This document shows positions 12,370-33,696 of a stretch of DNA of 37,126 nt, one piece after another. The stretch's first letter is position 1, and each line of letters opens with the position of its first letter. A program made the translations under genes and the position numbers. The notes beneath the pieces are model-generated. The model did not search any database. It had not been told where the DNA came from and worked only from the letters and a program-made list of their open reading frames with translations. The DNA is from a virus, in the IMG/VR virus record IMGVR_UViG_3300031623_001463, positions 1 through 37,126 of that record. One strand, written 5' to 3'.

Positions 12370-12828
12370 ATGTCCGAATACATTATTTTATTTCCAAAGT
12401 CTGTGAATAGTCCAAACTCAATCTTTATGAATAAGGACATGGAACTGCCCACAAAAGAAATTAAAAATTGCGAACTAGAAGATGCAATAGACCTCTTGGA
12501 GACATTAGGGCTACAACGAGCAAAATCATATACTATTGATAACAAAAAAAATAAGCACGAATCGTGCATGCCAGCAATCAAATTAGGGGTCATATTAGGG
12601 TCATGGGGAAAAATACACTGTATCCACGTCCCCGTGATAAATTTTAATGAAAAAAAAGCAACAGAAGATTATCATTCATGGCAAAGTTGGATGGAAATAA
12701 AAGACAATCAGAAAGTAAGCCCATTAATGAAAACAACCATCATGCTTATGAAAAACAAATTTAAAAATTGGAGCATTTATTCAGAGGACTTTTCATCCAG
12801 CAGCATTTGCATGCATTGGAACAATTAA
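12370..12828 (+). CDS. Hypothetical protein, 152 aa
   Basis: Not recognised. Two parts can be seen: an N-terminal region with an acidic helix (LEDAIDLLETLGLQRAKSY) and a C-terminal region rich in Lys, Trp and Ser. There is no signal peptide, membrane segment or enzyme motif. No clear ribosome site precedes the ATG; TATATAG lies about 10 nt upstream. The last 36 nt overlap the convergent C39-like peptidase gene. Confidence 0.55.
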   Translation: MSEYIILFPKSVNSPNSIFMNKDMELPTKEIKNCELEDAIDLLETLGLQRAKSYTIDNKKNKHESCMPAIKLGVILGSWGKIHCIHVPVINFNEKKATEDYHSWQSWMEIKDNQKVSPLMKTTIMLMKNKFKNWSIYSEDFSSSSICMHWNN

Positions 12829-13437
12829 AGTATAATTGCTGACATCTGCCAGTCTCAACAAACATCCAATAAAATCTGGGGGATGTATCTTTCTTCCAAA
12901 CATATCACGATTAAAGCTCCAAGCTTCAACAAAATCATATTGAGACATCATTATTATGTACCCGCCTGCTGGGTCCGCTAAAGAAATGGTACCATCGTCA
13001 TCGTTGTACCCCACAACAATAACATAGTGCCACGTAGTATTGGAACTCCTTATCAGACATATAGGGGGACGATTCTCCGACACATATGATTTAACATGAT
13101 CCAAATCACTCTTTCTAACAACAGAATAAACCCCATAATAACTTAAAGCGGAAGCAATATAGTCTGGCGAGGTCATTCCAACTTCTTCCCCTTTATAACT
13201 AAACCATTTAGTTTTAGTCTTGCTTTTAACTTTAGATACTTTTACTTCTTCCCCATAAAAATTCAATAACATAGTAGCAGCAACCGGACCACAACTTATT
13301 TGATCCAATTGTTTTATTAGGGGAAATTTACTTATAAAACATTTATCAGGGTAAACAGGTTTTGAAATTTCATTATAAATGACAATCCCAGAAATTAAAG
13401 AAAGAACAAAATAAGCCCACCTAATATTTCGACTCAT
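12793..13437 (-). CDS. C39-like cysteine peptidase with N-terminal membrane anchor
   Basis: A 214-residue protein. Residues 7-22 are a hydrophobic segment (YFVLSLISGIVI), a signal anchor or uncleaved signal peptide. The rest fits the papain-like C39 fold: Q46 with Cys49 in QISCGPVAATML, His137 in TWHYVIVVGY and Asp155 in SLADPAGGY. C39 domains cleave leaders after double Gly, usually inside ABC transporters; here there is no ABC part. Its ATG overlaps the stop of the Cys-rich gene (ATGA), so the two products are made together, and the Cys-rich protein is an obvious candidate substrate. Stand-alone C39-like proteins of other function also exist. Confidence 0.75.
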   Translation of the reverse strand: MSRNIRWAYFVLSLISGIVIYNEISKPVYPDKCFISKFPLIKQLDQISCGPVAATMLLNFYGEEVKVSKVKSKTKTKWFSYKGEEVGMTSPDYIASALSYYGVYSVVRKSDLDHVKSYVSENRPPICLIRSSNTTWHYVIVVGYNDDDGTISLADPAGGYIIMMSQYDFVEAWSFNRDMFGRKIHPPDFIGCLLRLADVSNYTLIVPMHANAAG

Positions 13438-14984
13438 CTCATCCTCTGTCTTCTACCGGCTACATTTCGGGCCATCGCTTGCCTTTTTCTTTTAATAGCT
13501 TTTACATTCAAATAAACTTTAGAAACTCCTTTTCTGGTGACCTTAACCACTGAGGAATCCCTGATTCCCTCACGACTATTCCTAATCTGGGGAATCTTAT
13601 TGACAAGCCCAAAAGTCCTATTAGATAACGCCGCAGTAGTAGCGACAGGCATACAAGTCCCGTTGCCTGCTTCGTTATCCACTCCGCCAGGGTAAGTTGG
13701 CTCGTGGCATTCACATAGCACATCTGGATCTTCGCACGCTGCACTGCAAGTGTCCGTATCAACATTCCACGCACCGCCACTCCAGGTATACATGCAATCG
13801 CCGCTTCCACAACAAGAAGCATTAGATGTGTCGCAGTCGCCACCATAGCAAGGAGTTGTCGCTGTTTCTCCATCTTCATAACCAGTAGCATTGGAATCCT
13901 GACAGGGGGCGCTAGTGTCGTAAACGTCGGCAGCATCTGGACAACCACATCCAGGTTCACAGTCGTCGCTGTCTAAGATATAAGTCACTACCGCCGTGTC
14001 GGGGTCGGTCGTGTGTGTATATTCACATGTTCCGGTGCCGCACGAACCGAGAACTGCAATCGGAATATCACAATCGCAATCAACCGTTGGCCCCGCACCC
14101 CCCGATGTACCTGTGCCAGAGCAATGAGTTGTCATCGTCACGACAGGTCCGCCAGGAATAGGAGAACCCTGACCTGACGGTTCGGGGCAATCACAATTAT
14201 CACAACCACAATCACTTGTCTGAGTCCAAGTTGCAGGAGTAATGATTGGATAGCACGTACTGTCGAGTGCCCATGTGCCATAGGTACAATTAGGCCGCCC
14301 GTAGCATGGTGTCCAAACCCATTCGCAACTACCGTCGCACTGACATTCCCCGCCACCACCACATGTTCCGGTAAACGTCTGAACATTGATTTCATTGTTG
14401 ATGATGGGTGCAGGATCAACGCCAGGTGTGCCCCATACCTCTTCGGCAACAGTACATGAGCATTGATGGCACTCTTCCTCAGAAACTTCCCACGTCCATT
14501 CGCATGTTCTGCTGGCACATTGGCAACCGGAATTATTACTTTCCCCACAATCAGATGTAAGCTCCCAATAGCAATCTTCTTCCCCACCGGGAACGTATGG
14601 ATCAGAGTGGGACGTTGCGTGCACGCCTACGTAATATCCACCACCACAACCACCGGCTGATCCGGGTGTTCCGGTATACGTCTGGGGAATGGTCGCAGCA
14701 TCTGGCACATCAACGCCAGGTGTGCCCCATGTATATGAGTCGAACGGTGTACATGAGCATCCAGGGCACTGAGAGCACGTACTGTTTTGTGTCCATGTGC
14801 CATCTTCACACTCACTTAGTAGTCCGATTGACTCTGGGATTGGCTCGCCGCATGGTGTCCAAACCCATTCGCAACTACCGTTGCACTGACATTCCTCGCA
14901 TCGATAAACCCATGTGCACACTCCCTCGCATTCGATGGAACAACAATCACACTCACAACAACTAAAACAATCCTTAATCGGCAT
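13434..14984 (-). CDS. Large cysteine-rich repeat protein
   Basis: A 516-residue protein with dozens of Cys, rich in Gly, Thr, Trp and Asp and almost free of Lys in the first 440 residues. Repeated units of the form C-x-C-x-G-x-C-E-W-x-W-T-P-C and T-W-G-T-P-G-V-D recur. The N-terminus is a Cys cluster (CFSCCECDCCSIEC) with no signal peptide. The last about 65 residues (from TTAALSNRTFG) change to a basic, Cys-free tail ending RRQRMR. The gene is clearly more GC-rich than its neighbours, a sign of separate origin. It could be a disulfide- or metal-stabilised surface or fibre protein. Its stop overlaps the start of the C39-like peptidase. In-frame DNA repeats lie within it. Confidence 0.8.
   Translation of the reverse strand: MPIKDCFSCCECDCCSIECEGVCTWVYRCEECQCNGSCEWVWTPCGEPIPESIGLLSECEDGTWTQNSTCSQCPGCSCTPFDSYTWGTPGVDVPDAATIPQTYTGTPGSAGGCGGGYYVGVHATSHSDPYVPGGEEDCYWELTSDCGESNNSGCQCASRTCEWTWEVSEEECHQCSCTVAEEVWGTPGVDPAPIINNEINVQTFTGTCGGGGECQCDGSCEWVWTPCYGRPNCTYGTWALDSTCYPIITPATWTQTSDCGCDNCDCPEPSGQGSPIPGGPVVTMTTHCSGTGTSGGAGPTVDCDCDIPIAVLGSCGTGTCEYTHTTDPDTAVVTYILDSDDCEPGCGCPDAADVYDTSAPCQDSNATGYEDGETATTPCYGGDCDTSNASCCGSGDCMYTWSGGAWNVDTDTCSAACEDPDVLCECHEPTYPGGVDNEAGNGTCMPVATTAALSNRTFGLVNKIPQIRNSREGIRDSSVVKVTRKGVSKVYLNVKAIKRKRQAMARNVAGRRQRMR
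14304..14895. repeat. In-frame direct repeats within the Cys-rich gene
   Basis: A 46-nt sequence at 14304-14349 recurs at 14850-14895 with a single C/T difference; the offset is 546 nt, exactly 182 codons. A second, exact 22-nt repeat lies at 14415-14436 and 14709-14730 (offset 294 nt, 98 codons). Both encode conserved parts of the protein repeat unit. Recombination between copies would remove or add whole repeat modules without breaking the frame. Confidence 0.9.
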
Positions 14985-21852: not shown

Positions 21853-22878
21853 TTACCCTAAATTTCTTAACTCTTTAAGAAAGTCGTCATCAGCCAAAAC
21901 CTCATCATCCCCGTCATCAGATGACGCTTCTACCTTTTCTGCTGGCGGGGCAGACTCTTCTGGTGTGGTAGACTCTTCTACATCAAAAGGTGCGGTCTCA
22001 CCACTCGCCGCACCTGCGACCTCTTGAGACTTCATTGAATCAGGCACGGGAAGAGTAACAGCCGGTGCGCCTTCAAGTTTAAATTCCGAAGGATCAAACC
22101 CGCCAGAAGCGTTCTCCTGTGCCACTCCAAGGAACATCTTAAGTTCATGCTTAAGCTCCTCTTCTGTCTTTAAGCTTCGAAGAGAAGAAAGGTCATGAAG
22201 TCCCGAAAGCCATTCTTTCGCACTATCTTTAGTGCCAAGAGGGGAAGGTTCAAGGAACTTGGATTCGTTATAATTAGGATAAGATTGAGATCCTGATTTT
22301 CTCATTCTCTTAATTAATTTAAAATCACGACCTTCCACCAAGTCACTAATGTCACCCAACGGAGACTCGCCAAGTTCCTCATCACCCACAATAGCACGAA
22401 TGATCATTTTGTGAACAGTCTTGCCACATGAAAAAATCTTAGGACCAACATTTTCCTCAGTTTCTCCATTAGCACCAATTTGAGAACGTACTATGACGTT
22501 ATAGTAATATCTCTCAATCGGCTTAATAGAACGAGCCTTAGTTTGAAAAGCGTCTGCTTCATCAGCACTAACGCCATCCTTCTCCGACTCTCTCCACAAC
22601 CAATTATAATATTCACAAACCGAACACTGGCCGAGCCATCTGGCGCCTTCAAGTTCTCTCGGACAATGTACGTTACGACCATTCATTCTATGTGTTCTAG
22701 TCGCACAATAAAAACTAGACCCCTTAGAAGGCGGTAGAAATCTCAAGGTGACAGCGCCATTTCCTTCAGGCATGCGAACAAAATTGTTTAAAAAATTATT
22801 ACTATTTTGCCCTGAGTCGGATAGCCGACTCGATTCCTGATTAATGTCACCAATATTTAGTTTTTCATAGTTACTCAC
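21853..22878 (-). CDS. gp32-like single-stranded DNA-binding protein
   Basis: A 341-residue T4 gp32-type protein that coats ssDNA in replication and recombination. The zinc site is visible as H63, C72, C85 and C88 (T4 uses H64, C77, C87, C90), followed by aromatic residues of the OB-fold (YYNWLW, ERYYYNVIV). The N-terminal residues are short and polar. The last 70 residues are acidic, ending DDDFLKELRNLG, the usual partner-binding tail. The start is GTG (22878), with GAGG about 8 nt upstream; no ATG is available nearby. It has its own promoter and terminator, fitting the high dose needed. Confidence 0.92.
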   Translation of the reverse strand: MSNYEKLNIGDINQESSRLSDSGQNSNNFLNNFVRMPEGNGAVTLRFLPPSKGSSFYCATRTHRMNGRNVHCPRELEGARWLGQCSVCEYYNWLWRESEKDGVSADEADAFQTKARSIKPIERYYYNVIVRSQIGANGETEENVGPKIFSCGKTVHKMIIRAIVGDEELGESPLGDISDLVEGRDFKLIKRMRKSGSQSYPNYNESKFLEPSPLGTKDSAKEWLSGLHDLSSLRSLKTEEELKHELKMFLGVAQENASGGFDPSEFKLEGAPAVTLPVPDSMKSQEVAGAASGETAPFDVEESTTPEESAPPAEKVEASSDDGDDEVLADDDFLKELRNLG

Positions 22879-28215: not shown

Positions 28216-29751
28216 TTAATCTGGAAGCCCATTCAGGGCGTCATTTGAAACGCTGCCATCGTCATTAAAGGTGGCAGCAAGAGTTTTGTCAAGTTTAACG
28301 TCGTCCATGTTTTCTTCTTTGTATTCATTCATCTTAGCATGATATACAGAACTATCAATCTCACTCATCTTTAATGTCTGCGGGTCATACTCGACATAAA
28401 AATGATATCTACTTTTCCCATTACGATGCTTAACGACAAACACACGACCAACACCCTGTTTCTTTTCTTGATGACTTTGATTCAAAGACCAAAGGCAATC
28501 AAGAGGGCGAACTTGTGCTTGAGAGTCGGCAATCATATCATCATCGATAAACCCGCCATTTTGCTGCGCTTCCCTTGCCGCCCTACCCGGTTGCATTGCT
28601 GTTAAAATACAAATACTCTCTTCGGTCGCAAATCCTCTTAAATCACGAACAAGCCGATACCTAGATTCATGAGTAGGCAACCCAGCTACGTCTTTCATTT
28701 CGCCAACATAATCGACAATAATCATATCAGGTCGAAATCCATTCATAACACATTGAGAAAAATAGGCTCGCAACGTATTAACATCAGCACCACCAGCAGG
28801 AAATTGCTTAATAACTAAAAGATTGTTGTTGGCCGACTCATCATACCACTCAAAATCTTTCAAATGGCTCTCTAGGCTCGCTATAACAATATCCCGATTT
28901 TCATAAAGATCTTGAATAGGTTGCCCAGTAAATTGGGCATCAAATCTCTGGGCAATCCGATCCTCATCCATTTCTAGAGACACATAAAGCACCTTTTTGC
29001 CCTTGTTGATGTTTTCTACAGCACCAGCCACAAGAGCTAAAGATTTACCAGATCCTGAAATTCCCATCCAAGATCCAAGTTCACCACGACAAATTCCCCC
29101 GCCTGTAATCTCGTTATCAATAGAAGGGAATCCAGAAGTAAATCTTTCTACAGACTTTTGCTCCTCACCCATTTTTTCATAACGAGAAACAGGGTCTTCA
29201 AAATACTCTAAACCAATATTGAAATCACGATCAATGTTCATGGAATCACGAAGTATTCCATACACCTTGGTCCATGTTTCCTCTTTCTCTGGGTTTCTTT
29301 TAATCTCCTGAATGGATTCATTAAAGGCTTTGCGAAGACCTTGCATCTTTGCAAAGTTAACAATCTTATCAAGCAAATACTCTTTAGCGTCTAAACCAGG
29401 AACATAATATTCATAAAGAGCATCTAATTCCCCCAGATAACGAAGTTCAACATCTTCGTTTCGGTCTGAAACTTTGTCTTTTATTTCCTGAATCAAAACA
29501 GATTTAGAAGGCGGCGATTTGTATTTTTTAAAATATGAAAATAAAATCTTGGCAACAACTGAATGCGCATCATTGACGAAATAAGATGGATCAACTAAAT
29601 CTACACTCTGTACTAAAAAGTAACGATCAACCAAAAGCATTCCAAGAATGTTTTTTTGATAATCATCATCCCATCGATACTTCGCTTCCCCCGGACCATC
29701 AGGGTCAATCAAAGATTCAAGCACAGCTTGGTCACTATCGCTTAATTTCAT
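28216..29751 (-). CDS. DnaB-type replicative helicase (T4 gp41-like)
   Basis: A 511-residue hexameric 5'-3' helicase. The N-terminal helical domain (residues 1-180) is followed by the RecA-type core. Walker A is GISGSGKS (230-237), then YVSLEMDEDRIAQRF, Walker B MIIVDYVGEM, ILTAMQPGR and a late HRNGKS segment. The linker and N-terminal domain look normal in size. It should move ahead of the polymerase at the fork. It is followed by the possible UvsY-like gene and preceded directly (1 nt) by the gene at 29752, in one leftward block with the polymerase. Confidence 0.93.
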   Translation of the reverse strand: MKLSDSDQAVLESLIDPDGPGEAKYRWDDDYQKNILGMLLVDRYFLVQSVDLVDPSYFVNDAHSVVAKILFSYFKKYKSPPSKSVLIQEIKDKVSDRNEDVELRYLGELDALYEYYVPGLDAKEYLLDKIVNFAKMQGLRKAFNESIQEIKRNPEKEETWTKVYGILRDSMNIDRDFNIGLEYFEDPVSRYEKMGEEQKSVERFTSGFPSIDNEITGGGICRGELGSWMGISGSGKSLALVAGAVENINKGKKVLYVSLEMDEDRIAQRFDAQFTGQPIQDLYENRDIVIASLESHLKDFEWYDESANNNLLVIKQFPAGGADVNTLRAYFSQCVMNGFRPDMIIVDYVGEMKDVAGLPTHESRYRLVRDLRGFATEESICILTAMQPGRAAREAQQNGGFIDDDMIADSQAQVRPLDCLWSLNQSHQEKKQGVGRVFVVKHRNGKSRYHFYVEYDPQTLKMSEIDSSVYHAKMNEYKEENMDDVKLDKTLAATFNDDGSVSNDALNGLPD

Positions 29752-30329: not shown

Positions 30330-31622
30330 CTAAATTTTTAAATTATTTAACTCTACAAGTCGATTGCCAACTCGACATTCAGTCGTCAATTTTAATCCAT
30401 CATACATTTCACAATTCTCCTCTAAAAGAATTTTAATATCCTTACACAGACTGGTGACGCCTAATGGTCGTGCCAATATAACAAAAGCATCATGTACATG
30501 AAAGACAACTTCCGCATCGGACGATTCTAACAAATCATAAAGCTTTATAAGTTTATCAAGGCAAACTAAAGATGCAGGCGCTTGGATGGCAAAGTTTCTA
30601 GCACGATATTTTTTCTCTTTAAAAATTCGGTTCCGACCAAAATAATCTATTGAGACATCCGCTATACAGGTTTGGCGTTGTTCTACCCAAGATATTGCAG
30701 TTTTGAAATGGCGGCAAATACCATTGTAAATGTGGTCGGCCATGCTTATCGAAACGCCCAGTTTCTTTGACAAAGCATTCTTGGACAAACCATATACAAC
30801 AGGCAAGAAAAAACTTTTACACAGCTTTCTTTGCTTACTGGTTTCGCATTCAACTCCAAATATCTTTTTAAATATAGAACTATACAAATCCTCCCCTGAA
30901 TTAATCATGTCACCAAGCACCGCATCTCCAGATAACCACTGAAGCACACTTACTTCCATATGTCGATAATCAAAATGTAAAAACAGATCATTAGGTTGGC
31001 GTGAGCAAAGATTGAGTTTGTCTTCCTTGCTCAAGGTGTGAGGGTTGAAACTGTCTTCTAGAACTTTCGAACAAAGTAATCGTCCGTTCAATTGGCCTTC
31101 AATTTGGTAGGTGGGAAAAACTTCTCTGCGAAGTTCTTTGTTGATAAGGCCAACAGTCTCTATCCCAGGCAGTGTTTTATTTATTAATGGCAAATGTATT
31201 TTTTTATAGACTTCCTGAAGATTTTGCCACGATTTATTACCCATCATAAATCGGATTCTTGTCTTGCATTCTGCCATGCCTTTGGGAACTTGGCCTTTAC
31301 AATCCAAAAAAGACTCTAAAACCTTCAAATCGAGAATGACTGCTTCCGTACTAAATGCCTTGCCAGAAATAGCTAAAACATAACTAAAAAAGCTCTTTAT
31401 CCCCCAGCAATAAACAAGTTTTTCCGGTTTGAAAATGGACTGCTTCAGGTAGGAAAAAACCGTAAATGCATTTTTCTTATCAACTTTGATTTCAACATAA
31501 TCAGATTTCCCAATAACATAAAAAACAACACCCCCCTTGCTGGTGAAATCCAGATAGCTAGGGGAGAACAAGAACAAGGCTTCCTTGTCTTGAGATATCT
31601 TAGATAATTTTTCTATGTCCAT
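30330..31622 (-). CDS. Family A DNA polymerase, compact form
   Basis: A 430-residue polymerase of the Pol I type. QLNGRLLCSK...NPHTL (177-196) matches the conserved TGR...NPNLQ region. Motif A is FDYRHMEVSVLQW (217-229, catalytic D218), motif B RKLCK...VVYG (265-278, with R265, K269, Y277, G278) and motif C HVHDAF (375-380). Motif C is normally VHDE, but here the Glu is Ala379; D378 remains. The first about 165 residues hold no recognisable 3'-5' exonuclease motifs, so proofreading is probably absent or separate. The whole is shorter than E. coli Klenow (about 605 residues). It starts next to the putative origin. Confidence 0.88.
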   Translation of the reverse strand: MDIEKLSKISQDKEALFLFSPSYLDFTSKGGVVFYVIGKSDYVEIKVDKKNAFTVFSYLKQSIFKPEKLVYCWGIKSFFSYVLAISGKAFSTEAVILDLKVLESFLDCKGQVPKGMAECKTRIRFMMGNKSWQNLQEVYKKIHLPLINKTLPGIETVGLINKELRREVFPTYQIEGQLNGRLLCSKVLEDSFNPHTLSKEDKLNLCSRQPNDLFLHFDYRHMEVSVLQWLSGDAVLGDMINSGEDLYSSIFKKIFGVECETSKQRKLCKSFFLPVVYGLSKNALSKKLGVSISMADHIYNGICRHFKTAISWVEQRQTCIADVSIDYFGRNRIFKEKKYRARNFAIQAPASLVCLDKLIKLYDLLESSDAEVVFHVHDAFVILARPLGVTSLCKDIKILLEENCEMYDGLKLTTECRVGNRLVELNNLKI

Positions 31623-31760
31623 AGACCATCAAATATAAAAACAAGTATTACATCAAGATTGTAGATCAGAACAAAAGACTTTGCAACTATTTAATCCTAT
31701 TTTTTCAGCGCACACAACGCCCCATGGGTTAAATGATTATTTCATTTAATCAATATTAAC

Positions 31761-31794
31761 TAAACAGTAAGAGAATATCTTAAACAGTAAGAGA
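31761..31794 (+). repeat. Iteron-like direct repeat
   Basis: TAAACAGTAAGAGA occurs exactly at 31761-31774 and 31781-31794, spaced 20 bp. A nearby CACTGTTA (from about 31800) contains the core in inverted orientation. This arrangement is typical of initiator or regulator binding sites. Confidence 0.85.
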
Positions 31795-31821
31795 TATAAC
31801 ACTGTTAGAAGAAGAAAAGAT

Positions 31822-31835
31822 AAGATAATTATCTT
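31822..31835. repeat. 14-bp perfect palindrome in the AT-rich part of the gene-free region
   Basis: AAGATAA followed by TTATCTT. Nearby, TTGAATAAC (about 31843) and GTTATTCAA (about 31910) form a further 9-bp inverted pair. These could be protein-binding or unwinding elements. Confidence 0.8.
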
Positions 31836-32040
31836 TTACTATTGAATAACAAGAATAAGAAGAACAAAGATCATTACTCTTCATTCTTTCATTCAATAAG
31901 TTATTCAACATAAACTTTCCTTCAATAATATTGATCAACAATCAAAAAACTTAAATATACTAATTCAGTGCACCTATTGAGAACTTCTAACTATAGCCTT
32001 TAGTCTTCGTACTCATTACTTCAGAAGACAAAATTCACAA

Positions 32041-32300
32041 CAAATTAATGTTGACCCGTTTCGGCTTAATCTCAGACTATAGCGGACTCTTATTCTCGGT
32101 CGGCGGAGGGATCAGGGCCAGTTGAAAGCCCTGTCTGGTTCCGGTTGATAACCGGCCACCTAGAGTTTTTAACAAGAAAGGCATTTAGCGGGTACAGGCC
32201 AAAGTTCTTTCCCTGCCGTCATCGTAAGGACGGCTGTTGGTTGTGTGTTAGTATTCCTTGTTTAGAGCGATAACGCAGTGGGTTTTGTTTTTTATTAGTC
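32041..32300. ncRNA. Candidate structured RNA or structured DNA element
   Basis: A GC-rich stretch in an AT-rich genome with several short perfect hairpins: 32113-32118/32128-32133 (CAGGGC/GCCCTG), 32141-32146/32150-32155 (CCGGTT/AACCGG, 3-nt loop) and 32215-32220/32229-32234 (GCCGTC/GACGGC). A T-rich run (GGTTTTGTTTTTTATT) follows at 32281-32296 on the plus strand. The strand is not determined. No tRNA, tmRNA or RNase P signature was found. It may be a noncoding RNA, a replication primer RNA or a folded origin. Confidence 0.4.
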
Positions 32301-32403
32301 CAGCCTTAGTTTAGTTTGGTTCTCCAAAGTTACATTGACAATATTATAAAATAATTTAAAACATGTCTAGTCAAATAATTTATTTTAAAATGCGAGGCCT
32401 ATT

Positions 32404-33696
32404 ATGTCTGACTGGAACGACTTACATCATAAGACAACAGTTGTCGATCTCCATACTCATCCTGCCCTTAAATCAACTGTATTTCATAGAAATTTAAGTT
32501 CCACGACAGGTAAATTCCTTCAACGATTTTTTAAGGAAAAATTTTGGCCCTTTAGCGGAAGAGTCACTTTCCCAAAGATGGAAGCGGGAGGCATGGATGT
32601 GCTTTTATCTACAGCGTATGTCTTAGAACAAGGTTGGATAGACGATATATCTTTAATTAAATGGTTATTTAAAATAGCCCCTGGTGCTCGTAAAAAAGTA
32701 GTCGATCCCACTTACTTTGATGCCACAAACATTATGCTAGATGAGATGAAGAAACAAATTGACCAATATAATAAAAAAACTAAAGCAATCCAAATAAAGT
32801 GGGAGGATTTTTCAGGAGTAGATGAGAACGACCTACAAAAAACACGTTTAGCAAGACTTGTGACCTCTAGCGATAAACTGCAAGAAGGGATTAACAGTGG
32901 TGATATGTGTGTGGTTCATTCCATCGAAGGAGCACATAGTTTGCAAGATTCACTTGCTGGAAAGATACCCGGCACTAATGGTTGGAATGATTCTCCCGAA
33001 GTTGAAACGGAAATATTATCTAATTTAGAACATTTCTTTAATAGAGGCGTTGCTTATCTAACTCTGGCACATTTTTATCCTAATCAATGTGCCAACCCAG
33101 TTTTCCCATACCCAGAATATGGTGCCAAGCATCTAAAATGGAGAAAAATATTAGGGAAATGGGATGAAACCAAGGGTTTAACTCCCATTGGAATTAAAGT
33201 AGTAGAAAAAATGCTTGAGCTAGGGATGTTAATAGATATTTCCCATTGCACATTGGCAGCAAGAAAACAAATATATGACATAGTCGATTCTAATAATTGT
33301 GAAAATTGTCTTATCGCTACACATGTAGGATGTTTTGAAATAAACAGAGTTACTTATAATATCCAAGATTGGGAATTCAAATGGCTTGCCGATCATGGTT
33401 GCGTGGCAGGAATAATATTTATGAATTATTGGACTTCCCCTGTGGACAGTGGTTTGGGTTTAAAATACATAGAACAGACGCTAAATCACATCATAAATGT
33501 TTGCGGGTCAGAAACACCTGCTCTTGGAACAGATTTAGACGGTTTTACTGACCCTCCAGATGAAATAGTTGATATGTCTGAATTGCCCAGATTAACTTGT
33601 TATTTAAAGGGTTTAGACTATAGTGACGATGTTGTTGAAAAGTTTTTAGGTGGAAATGCCTTGAGAATTTTGTTAGAAGGTTGGAAAAAGAAATAG
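32404..33696 (+). CDS. M19-type (renal dipeptidase-like) metallopeptidase
   Basis: A 430-residue protein with the order of metal-site motifs of membrane dipeptidase family M19: VVDLHTHP (H17, H19), HSIEGAH (E175), DISH (H281), ATHVG (H307) and GTDLDGF (D377, D379). Family members split dipeptides and some beta-lactams. One difference is seen: the first site is His-x-His rather than the His-x-Asp of human DPEP1, as in general amidohydrolases. No signal peptide is seen, so it would act in the cytoplasm. GAGG lies 8 nt before the ATG. Its presence in a phage is unusual; the role may be peptide recycling. Confidence 0.8.
   Translation: MSDWNDLHHKTTVVDLHTHPALKSTVFHRNLSSTTGKFLQRFFKEKFWPFSGRVTFPKMEAGGMDVLLSTAYVLEQGWIDDISLIKWLFKIAPGARKKVVDPTYFDATNIMLDEMKKQIDQYNKKTKAIQIKWEDFSGVDENDLQKTRLARLVTSSDKLQEGINSGDMCVVHSIEGAHSLQDSLAGKIPGTNGWNDSPEVETEILSNLEHFFNRGVAYLTLAHFYPNQCANPVFPYPEYGAKHLKWRKILGKWDETKGLTPIGIKVVEKMLELGMLIDISHCTLAARKQIYDIVDSNNCENCLIATHVGCFEINRVTYNIQDWEFKWLADHGCVAGIIFMNYWTSPVDSGLGLKYIEQTLNHIINVCGSETPALGTDLDGFTDPPDEIVDMSELPRLTCYLKGLDYSDDVVEKFLGGNALRILLEGWKKK

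Follow-up and report, generated by a model that had tools for sequence, protein, structure and literature searches.

Does the non-coding DNA at positions 31623-32403 mark the place from which two replication forks set out in opposite directions? The DNA analysed in this study (the window), a linear virus record of 37,126 bases, covers part of the genome of an uncultured phage of very large size. To our knowledge, the start of genome copying in very large phages is largely unknown, and skew curves usually place origins coarsely. Apart from its last base, the window is contained with zero mismatches (100%) in a record of 95,283 bp (G001, IMGVR_UViG_3300031605_001661, reverse orientation). G001 is overlapped on the left by G014 (IMGVR_UViG_3300010883_027406; 56,999 bp at 99.98%) and on the right by G015 (IMGVR_UViG_3300031623_000024; 769 bp at 100%; the overlap falls within a giant repetitive gene, which makes this join less certain), and the three were combined into about 157 kb for skew analysis. 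A relative, G002 (IMGVR_UViG_3300009370_002433, 37,409 bp), shares about 87.5% nucleotide identity beside and across the region. The closest match among named phage records is LR756511.1 (595 kb), whose gene order is collinear around the region. The switch in strand composition described below was tested on G001 (95 kb), on the overlapping records (about 157 kb) and in another five relatives; these records are linear pieces of an incomplete genome. The end of G001 carries a giant repetitive ORF (L034:24-9395, plus strand, 3,123 aa), probably a tail or fibre protein.

Strand composition on either side of the region

Because a surplus of genes in one direction can mimic skew, composition was measured on the plus strand at third codon positions, with rightward and leftward genes analysed apart. 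In the left 66 kb of G001, codon-3 GC and T-A skews were -0.22 and -0.27 in rightward genes and -0.25 and -0.24 in leftward genes, while in the right 28 kb the GC/TA values were +0.10/+0.09 and +0.17/+0.01, respectively. At these sites, A and C prevail on the plus strand to the left of the region, and to the right its composition is G/T-rich or neutral, which bears out two claims of the first-pass annotation, namely that the left is A/C-rich even in rightward genes and that the right is richer in T and G. When composition was regressed on side and gene direction, side gave t=19.0 in G001 and 10.5 in G002, compared to 0.1 and -1.3 for direction. The best change-point for the combined measure (G+T versus A+C) fell exactly at the region in both G001 and G002, a result reached by 0 of 1000 permutations; within the window alone, the combined measure pointed one gene leftward (30,318/30,329) and TA3 exactly to the region. 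The compositional flip is real and independent of gene direction, and its polarity, read by analogy with bacteria, would be that of diverging forks, as at origins recognised by skew. The sign of GC3 is unchanged for ~95 kb to the left and ~62 kb to the right (the left and right extensions adding 28 and 33 kb), and TA3 on the right is near zero beyond about 45 kb. No terminus-type switch was found along about 157 kb, a scan that covers an incomplete genome.

Two earlier expectations held only in part. Genes had been described as mostly leftward on the left and mostly rightward on the right; the first is correct (53 of 63 kb coding), but in the right 28 kb leftward genes occupy 21.2 kb versus 5.9 kb rightward, and only the two nearest genes fit the description. 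A skew extremum had also been expected at about 32 kb, and the raw cumulative GC-skew minimum of the window does lie there (32,097), but the raw minima of G001 lie elsewhere (GC at 51.9 kb, keto at 34.3 kb), its GC-skew curve bending sharply to a plateau at ~32 kb. After correction for gene direction, and over about 157 kb, the break at ~32 kb is present.

Intergenic bases alone place the switch at 32,045 in the window and at 22,336 in G002, which are the same aligned base, with a likelihood gain reached by 1 of 500 shuffles; adding neighbouring codon-3 sites gave the 2-log-unit interval listed in Table 1. The optimum coincides with the boundary where the AT-rich half of the region gives way to a half that is richer in G+C and contains short hairpins. 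With codon-3 sites alone, the switch falls in G002 at 81 bp beyond the region's left edge and in G001 at 30,996, within the 5' part of the adjoining PolA-like gene, which leaves its location open to an error of about 1 kb.

Table 1. Features in and around the proposed origin (window coordinates unless a locus prefix is given)
Feature	Position	Strand	Basis
Non-coding region, proposed bidirectional replication origin	31623-32403 (781 bp)	.	Codon-3 switch in G001/G002; substitution constraint
Best switch-point estimate	31999-32096, optimum 32,045	.	Joint maximum likelihood, intergenic bases and neighbouring codon-3 sites
AT-rich block (78%), candidate unwinding element	31728-31967	.	240-bp maximum 78.3%, 99.98th percentile of the window's 240-bp stretches
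51-nt block identical in G002	31703-31753	.	Alignment; includes 19-bp dyad 31734-31752
Palindrome/hairpin AAAAGATAAGATAATTATCTTTT	31815-31837	.	Identical in G002; 14-bp palindrome 31822-31835
Inverted repeat	31746-31938 (13-nt arms 31746-31758 and 31926-31938)	.	Complementarity kept in G002
14-nt direct repeat	31761-31794 (copies 31761/31781, spacing 20)	.	Alignment, motif count
G+C-richer segment, short hairpins, one terminator-like (32215-32234, +)	32080-32240	.	No significant RNA fold, no Rfam family
DnaB/gp41-type replicative helicase	28216-29751	-	phrog_19 E=5.4e-67
Short PolA-like DNA polymerase, 430 aa, polymerase part only	30330-31622	-	Pfam DNA_pol_A E=1.5e-22, NCBIfam
M19 membrane-dipeptidase-like gene, right neighbour	32404-33696	+	PF01244 E=2.2e-42
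ORF390 loci	L075:8796-9980; L225:5992-7155; L226:6001-7176; L041:18817-19980

Elements of the region and genes around it

The region contains no ORF of 80 aa or more, and it differs from G002 by 12.2% substitutions, compared to 28.8% at four-fold sites of 13 neighbouring genes, which indicates that this intergenic DNA is constrained. It had been described as AT-rich with a palindrome and inverted repeats, and all of these are present (Table 1). The dyad TGATTATTTCATTTAATCA (TGATTA-N7-TAATCA) within the invariant block occurs once in 157 kb; the exact conserved block was found within IMG/VR in G001 and G002 only, and named phages give chance-level matches to the region. In the inverted repeat, G002 differs on both arms (31754, 31930) in a way that preserves pairing, which is a single event, and the repeat is not beyond chance, such repeats being not rare in shuffles. 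The 14-nt repeat noticed earlier does exist with its spacing of 20, but it is absent as a repeat in G002, its motif (up to 3 mismatches) is no commoner in the window than chance, and it is probably not functional. A search for structured RNA in 32040-32340 gave no Rfam family at threshold and folding z-scores of +0.29 (plus strand) and -1.40 (minus strand). A weak full-length match to RAGATH-27 at 31964-32050 (plus strand; 20.8 bits, cut-off 76.1, E=4.9) is probably due to chance.

Several known kinds of origin offer a comparison. At the lambda origin, repeated initiator sites lie beside A+T-rich DNA (PMC5043065); here, likewise, the dyad block adjoins AT-rich DNA, but unlike lambda and iteron origins the region has no significant array of repeated initiator sites, and no initiator gene was identified. 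The motif WCAAKATTR seemed enriched, but it had been picked after comparing two genomes and was dropped after an unbiased 9-mer repeat test, in which 35 of 61 control stretches equalled or beat the region. A DnaE-type polymerase and a keto-rich presumed leading strand recall bacterial oriC systems; unlike DnaA-dependent oriC, however, the region has no DnaA box at up to 1 mismatch, and no gene with a DnaA domain was found in the contigs examined (PF00308 was absent from six records and present in 13 of 14 controls). No beta-clamp gene was found. At the T4 origins oriF and oriG, an A+T-rich unwinding element is used together with a promoter and an R-loop (PMC3016281). The present phage resembles T4 in having UvsX, gp32 and gp41-type proteins and, at 31728-31967, an A+T-rich element of this type. 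No MotA-type promoter was identified in the region; the phage differs in that its replicase is DnaE rather than gp43 and in that the strong skew suggests one dominant origin, compared to the several of T4.

The leftward polymerase that had been annotated beside the region is the PolA-like gene of Table 1, the conserved left neighbour of the switch. It is not the phage's sole polymerase, as G001 also carries DnaE (Pol III alpha); in addition, the phage encodes a UvsX-like recombinase, a gp32-like SSB and thymidylate synthase. DnaE of G001 is split into two genes (L037:7572-8918 and L037:11826-14336, both plus strand) about 40-45 kb left of the region; the break lies immediately ahead of the catalytic PDxDxD motif, and the two halves are separated by other genes and a tmRNA (L037:11396-11752, plus strand; tag peptide DKTNFAMAA). 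No intein was recognised by eye in the split gene, and the frame is intact in LR756511.1 and G016 (1183 and 1195 aa). M19 dipeptidase-like genes are common to many otherwise unlike viral contigs (window 32404-33696 plus 20 IMG/VR loci), and phages having the M19 gene alone in common matched the region no better than chance and lacked PolA. Elsewhere in the window, a 516-aa cysteine-rich protein (13434-14984, minus strand) with a G+C content of about 51%, compared to 37%, lies beside a C39-like peptidase gene (12793-13437) and is perhaps a processed or secreted product.

The same position in distant relatives

For the relatives, the same scan was run over whole contigs with gene direction regressed out. 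In G016 (IMGVR_UViG_3300014202_001521), whose PolA is 33% identical, the top switch of 340 kb scanned lies at 60,719 (t=6.7, 8.0 and 9.0 at three scan widths), and in G020 (IMGVR_UViG_3300036766_002288), with a PolA 36% identical, the top switch of 187 kb lies at 67,145 (t=7.7 to 13.9). Both exceed the permutation maxima (5.2 and 4.4), and both fall at the boundary between PolA and a 390-aa ORF (ORF390), some 1.2 kb away from the divergence of gene directions; by our own arithmetic, random placement within 1.5 kb in both has a probability of about 3/340 x 3/187 = 1.4e-4. In the 38.6-kb G019 (IMGVR_UViG_3300037264_005791), a peak that is not significant alone coincides with this boundary or lies close to it (28,679 at 3 of 4 scan widths). 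For LR756511.1, scanning gave a local peak at 397,044, and site-level mapping placed a local optimum at 395,632, within its ORF387; higher scores at 428.7 kb (40 kb width) and about 430 kb (60 kb width) outdo the syntenic switch, so that this record counts as only compatible. Its skew is also lopsided, most of its length being biased one way, because a strong terminus-type switch lies at ~30-49 kb, with positive GC3 skew before it. Overall, these comparisons, significant in G016 and G020, compatible in G019 and ambiguous in LR756511.1, show a conserved position. In all four relatives there is almost no intergenic DNA at the switch, PolA overlapping ORF390 by a few bases with a divergent gene close behind; the position is therefore conserved though sequence and coding content are not.

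ORF390 is 52-65% identical among the relatives and absent from the lineage of the window, where a search of 31623-32403 for a relic found no similarity. It gave no informative match in Pfam, PHROGs, NCBIfam or PDB sequences and no profile similarity to PolA, and its poor AlphaFold model (mean pLDDT 62.8) gave no significant fold match. By eye, its motifs DIxNSQPLL and TIHDSILTT resemble polymerase motifs A and C, a likeness that no search supports.

There are several potential alternative explanations. The conservation of the region may chiefly reflect control of the divergent PolA and dipeptidase operons, with the true origin no more than about 1 kb away, perhaps in the 5' part of PolA, much as in those relatives in which the place is coding. 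The codon-3 mapping in G001 and the switches at or inside PolA/ORF390 in G016, G019, G020 and LR756511.1 fit such an arrangement; however, joint mapping with intergenic bases prefers 32,045 over 31,000 by 9 log units, and sigma-70-like sites in the region (6 versus 3.4 +/- 1.6 expected) are not clearly above chance, although the phage's own promoter consensus may differ, and we consider this explanation unlikely. It is quite improbable that the place is a genome end or concatemer junction, where replication from both ends of a linear genome followed by joining would imitate diverging forks: the records are indeed linear fragments, but four assemblies and relatives (G001, G002, G016 and G020) continue straight through the place, and the replication genes are of helicase/SSB/DnaE type, with no terminal-protein system noticed among the genes identified. 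An old inversion or recombination joint between two modules of opposite strand bias would also flip skew sharply, and the magnitudes do differ between sides; against this, LR756511.1 has a common gene order around the place, the distant relatives G016 and G020 combine this order with a switch at the same place, and strand bias would presumably have re-equilibrated since an old inversion, which makes the idea very hard to sustain. Finally, that transcription of divergent operons rather than replication biases the coding strands, as the mostly leftward genes on the left might suggest, is scarcely credible, being contradicted for the sites tested by the indifference of codon-3 composition in G001 to gene direction and by the positive GC3 of the right side, where coding DNA is mostly leftward.

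A proposed bidirectional origin

In bacteria, an excess of G and T on the leading strand is the general trend, most Firmicutes, which also have PolC, being excepted (PMC2031905), and as this phage encodes DnaE a keto-rich leading strand is the natural expectation. Given that the plus strand is C/A-rich on the left and G/T-rich on the right, forks would be leaving 31623-32403 rather than meeting there. We consider it probable that the region is, or contains, the main fixed origin, with two forks departing in opposite directions, as the first-pass annotation had proposed; this reading draws on the direction-corrected switch over about 157 kb and on the strongest origin-type switches of G016 and G020 at the syntenic place. 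A phage protein, a transcript or both may engage the invariant dyad block and the inverted repeats at 31.70-31.94 kb, whereupon the AT-rich block would open and the phage's DnaB/gp41-type helicase would be loaded on both strands. Forks copied by the phage DnaE polymerase would then diverge from about 32.05 kb, and the leading strand of each would have accumulated G and T, leaving the plus strand A/C-rich on the left and G/T-rich on the right.

It is also conceivable, if rather doubtful, that the origin of this clade has stayed fixed beside the short PolA-like gene while its own DNA was exchanged, being PolA/ORF390 in the relatives and a dedicated non-coding origin here in place of ORF390; the PolA-like enzyme would then be an origin-specific polymerase additional to the DnaE replicase, and ORF390 an initiator or primer-making enzyme.

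Of the very large uncultured phage genomes described by Al-Shayeb et al. 2020 (PMC7162821), about 30% have a skew that points to bidirectional replication. The present phage is likewise very large and uncultured, and LR756511.1 is a collinear relative; unlike those skew origins, the switch described here, in a genome that is not closed, was disentangled from gene direction, placed to within about 100 bp (conservatively 1 kb) and followed across relatives. What is proposed thus belongs to a known kind of element, the bidirectional replication origin; its location is unusually sharp, and its position is conserved within a little-known clade of huge phages. The result supplies a specific, conserved element of 0.8 kb that can be cloned and is pinned to about 100 bp (conservatively 1 kb), beside a conserved gene whose product is a candidate partner enzyme. 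This puts the question of the origin within reach of plasmid replication assays and of sequencing depth in metagenomes that already exist.
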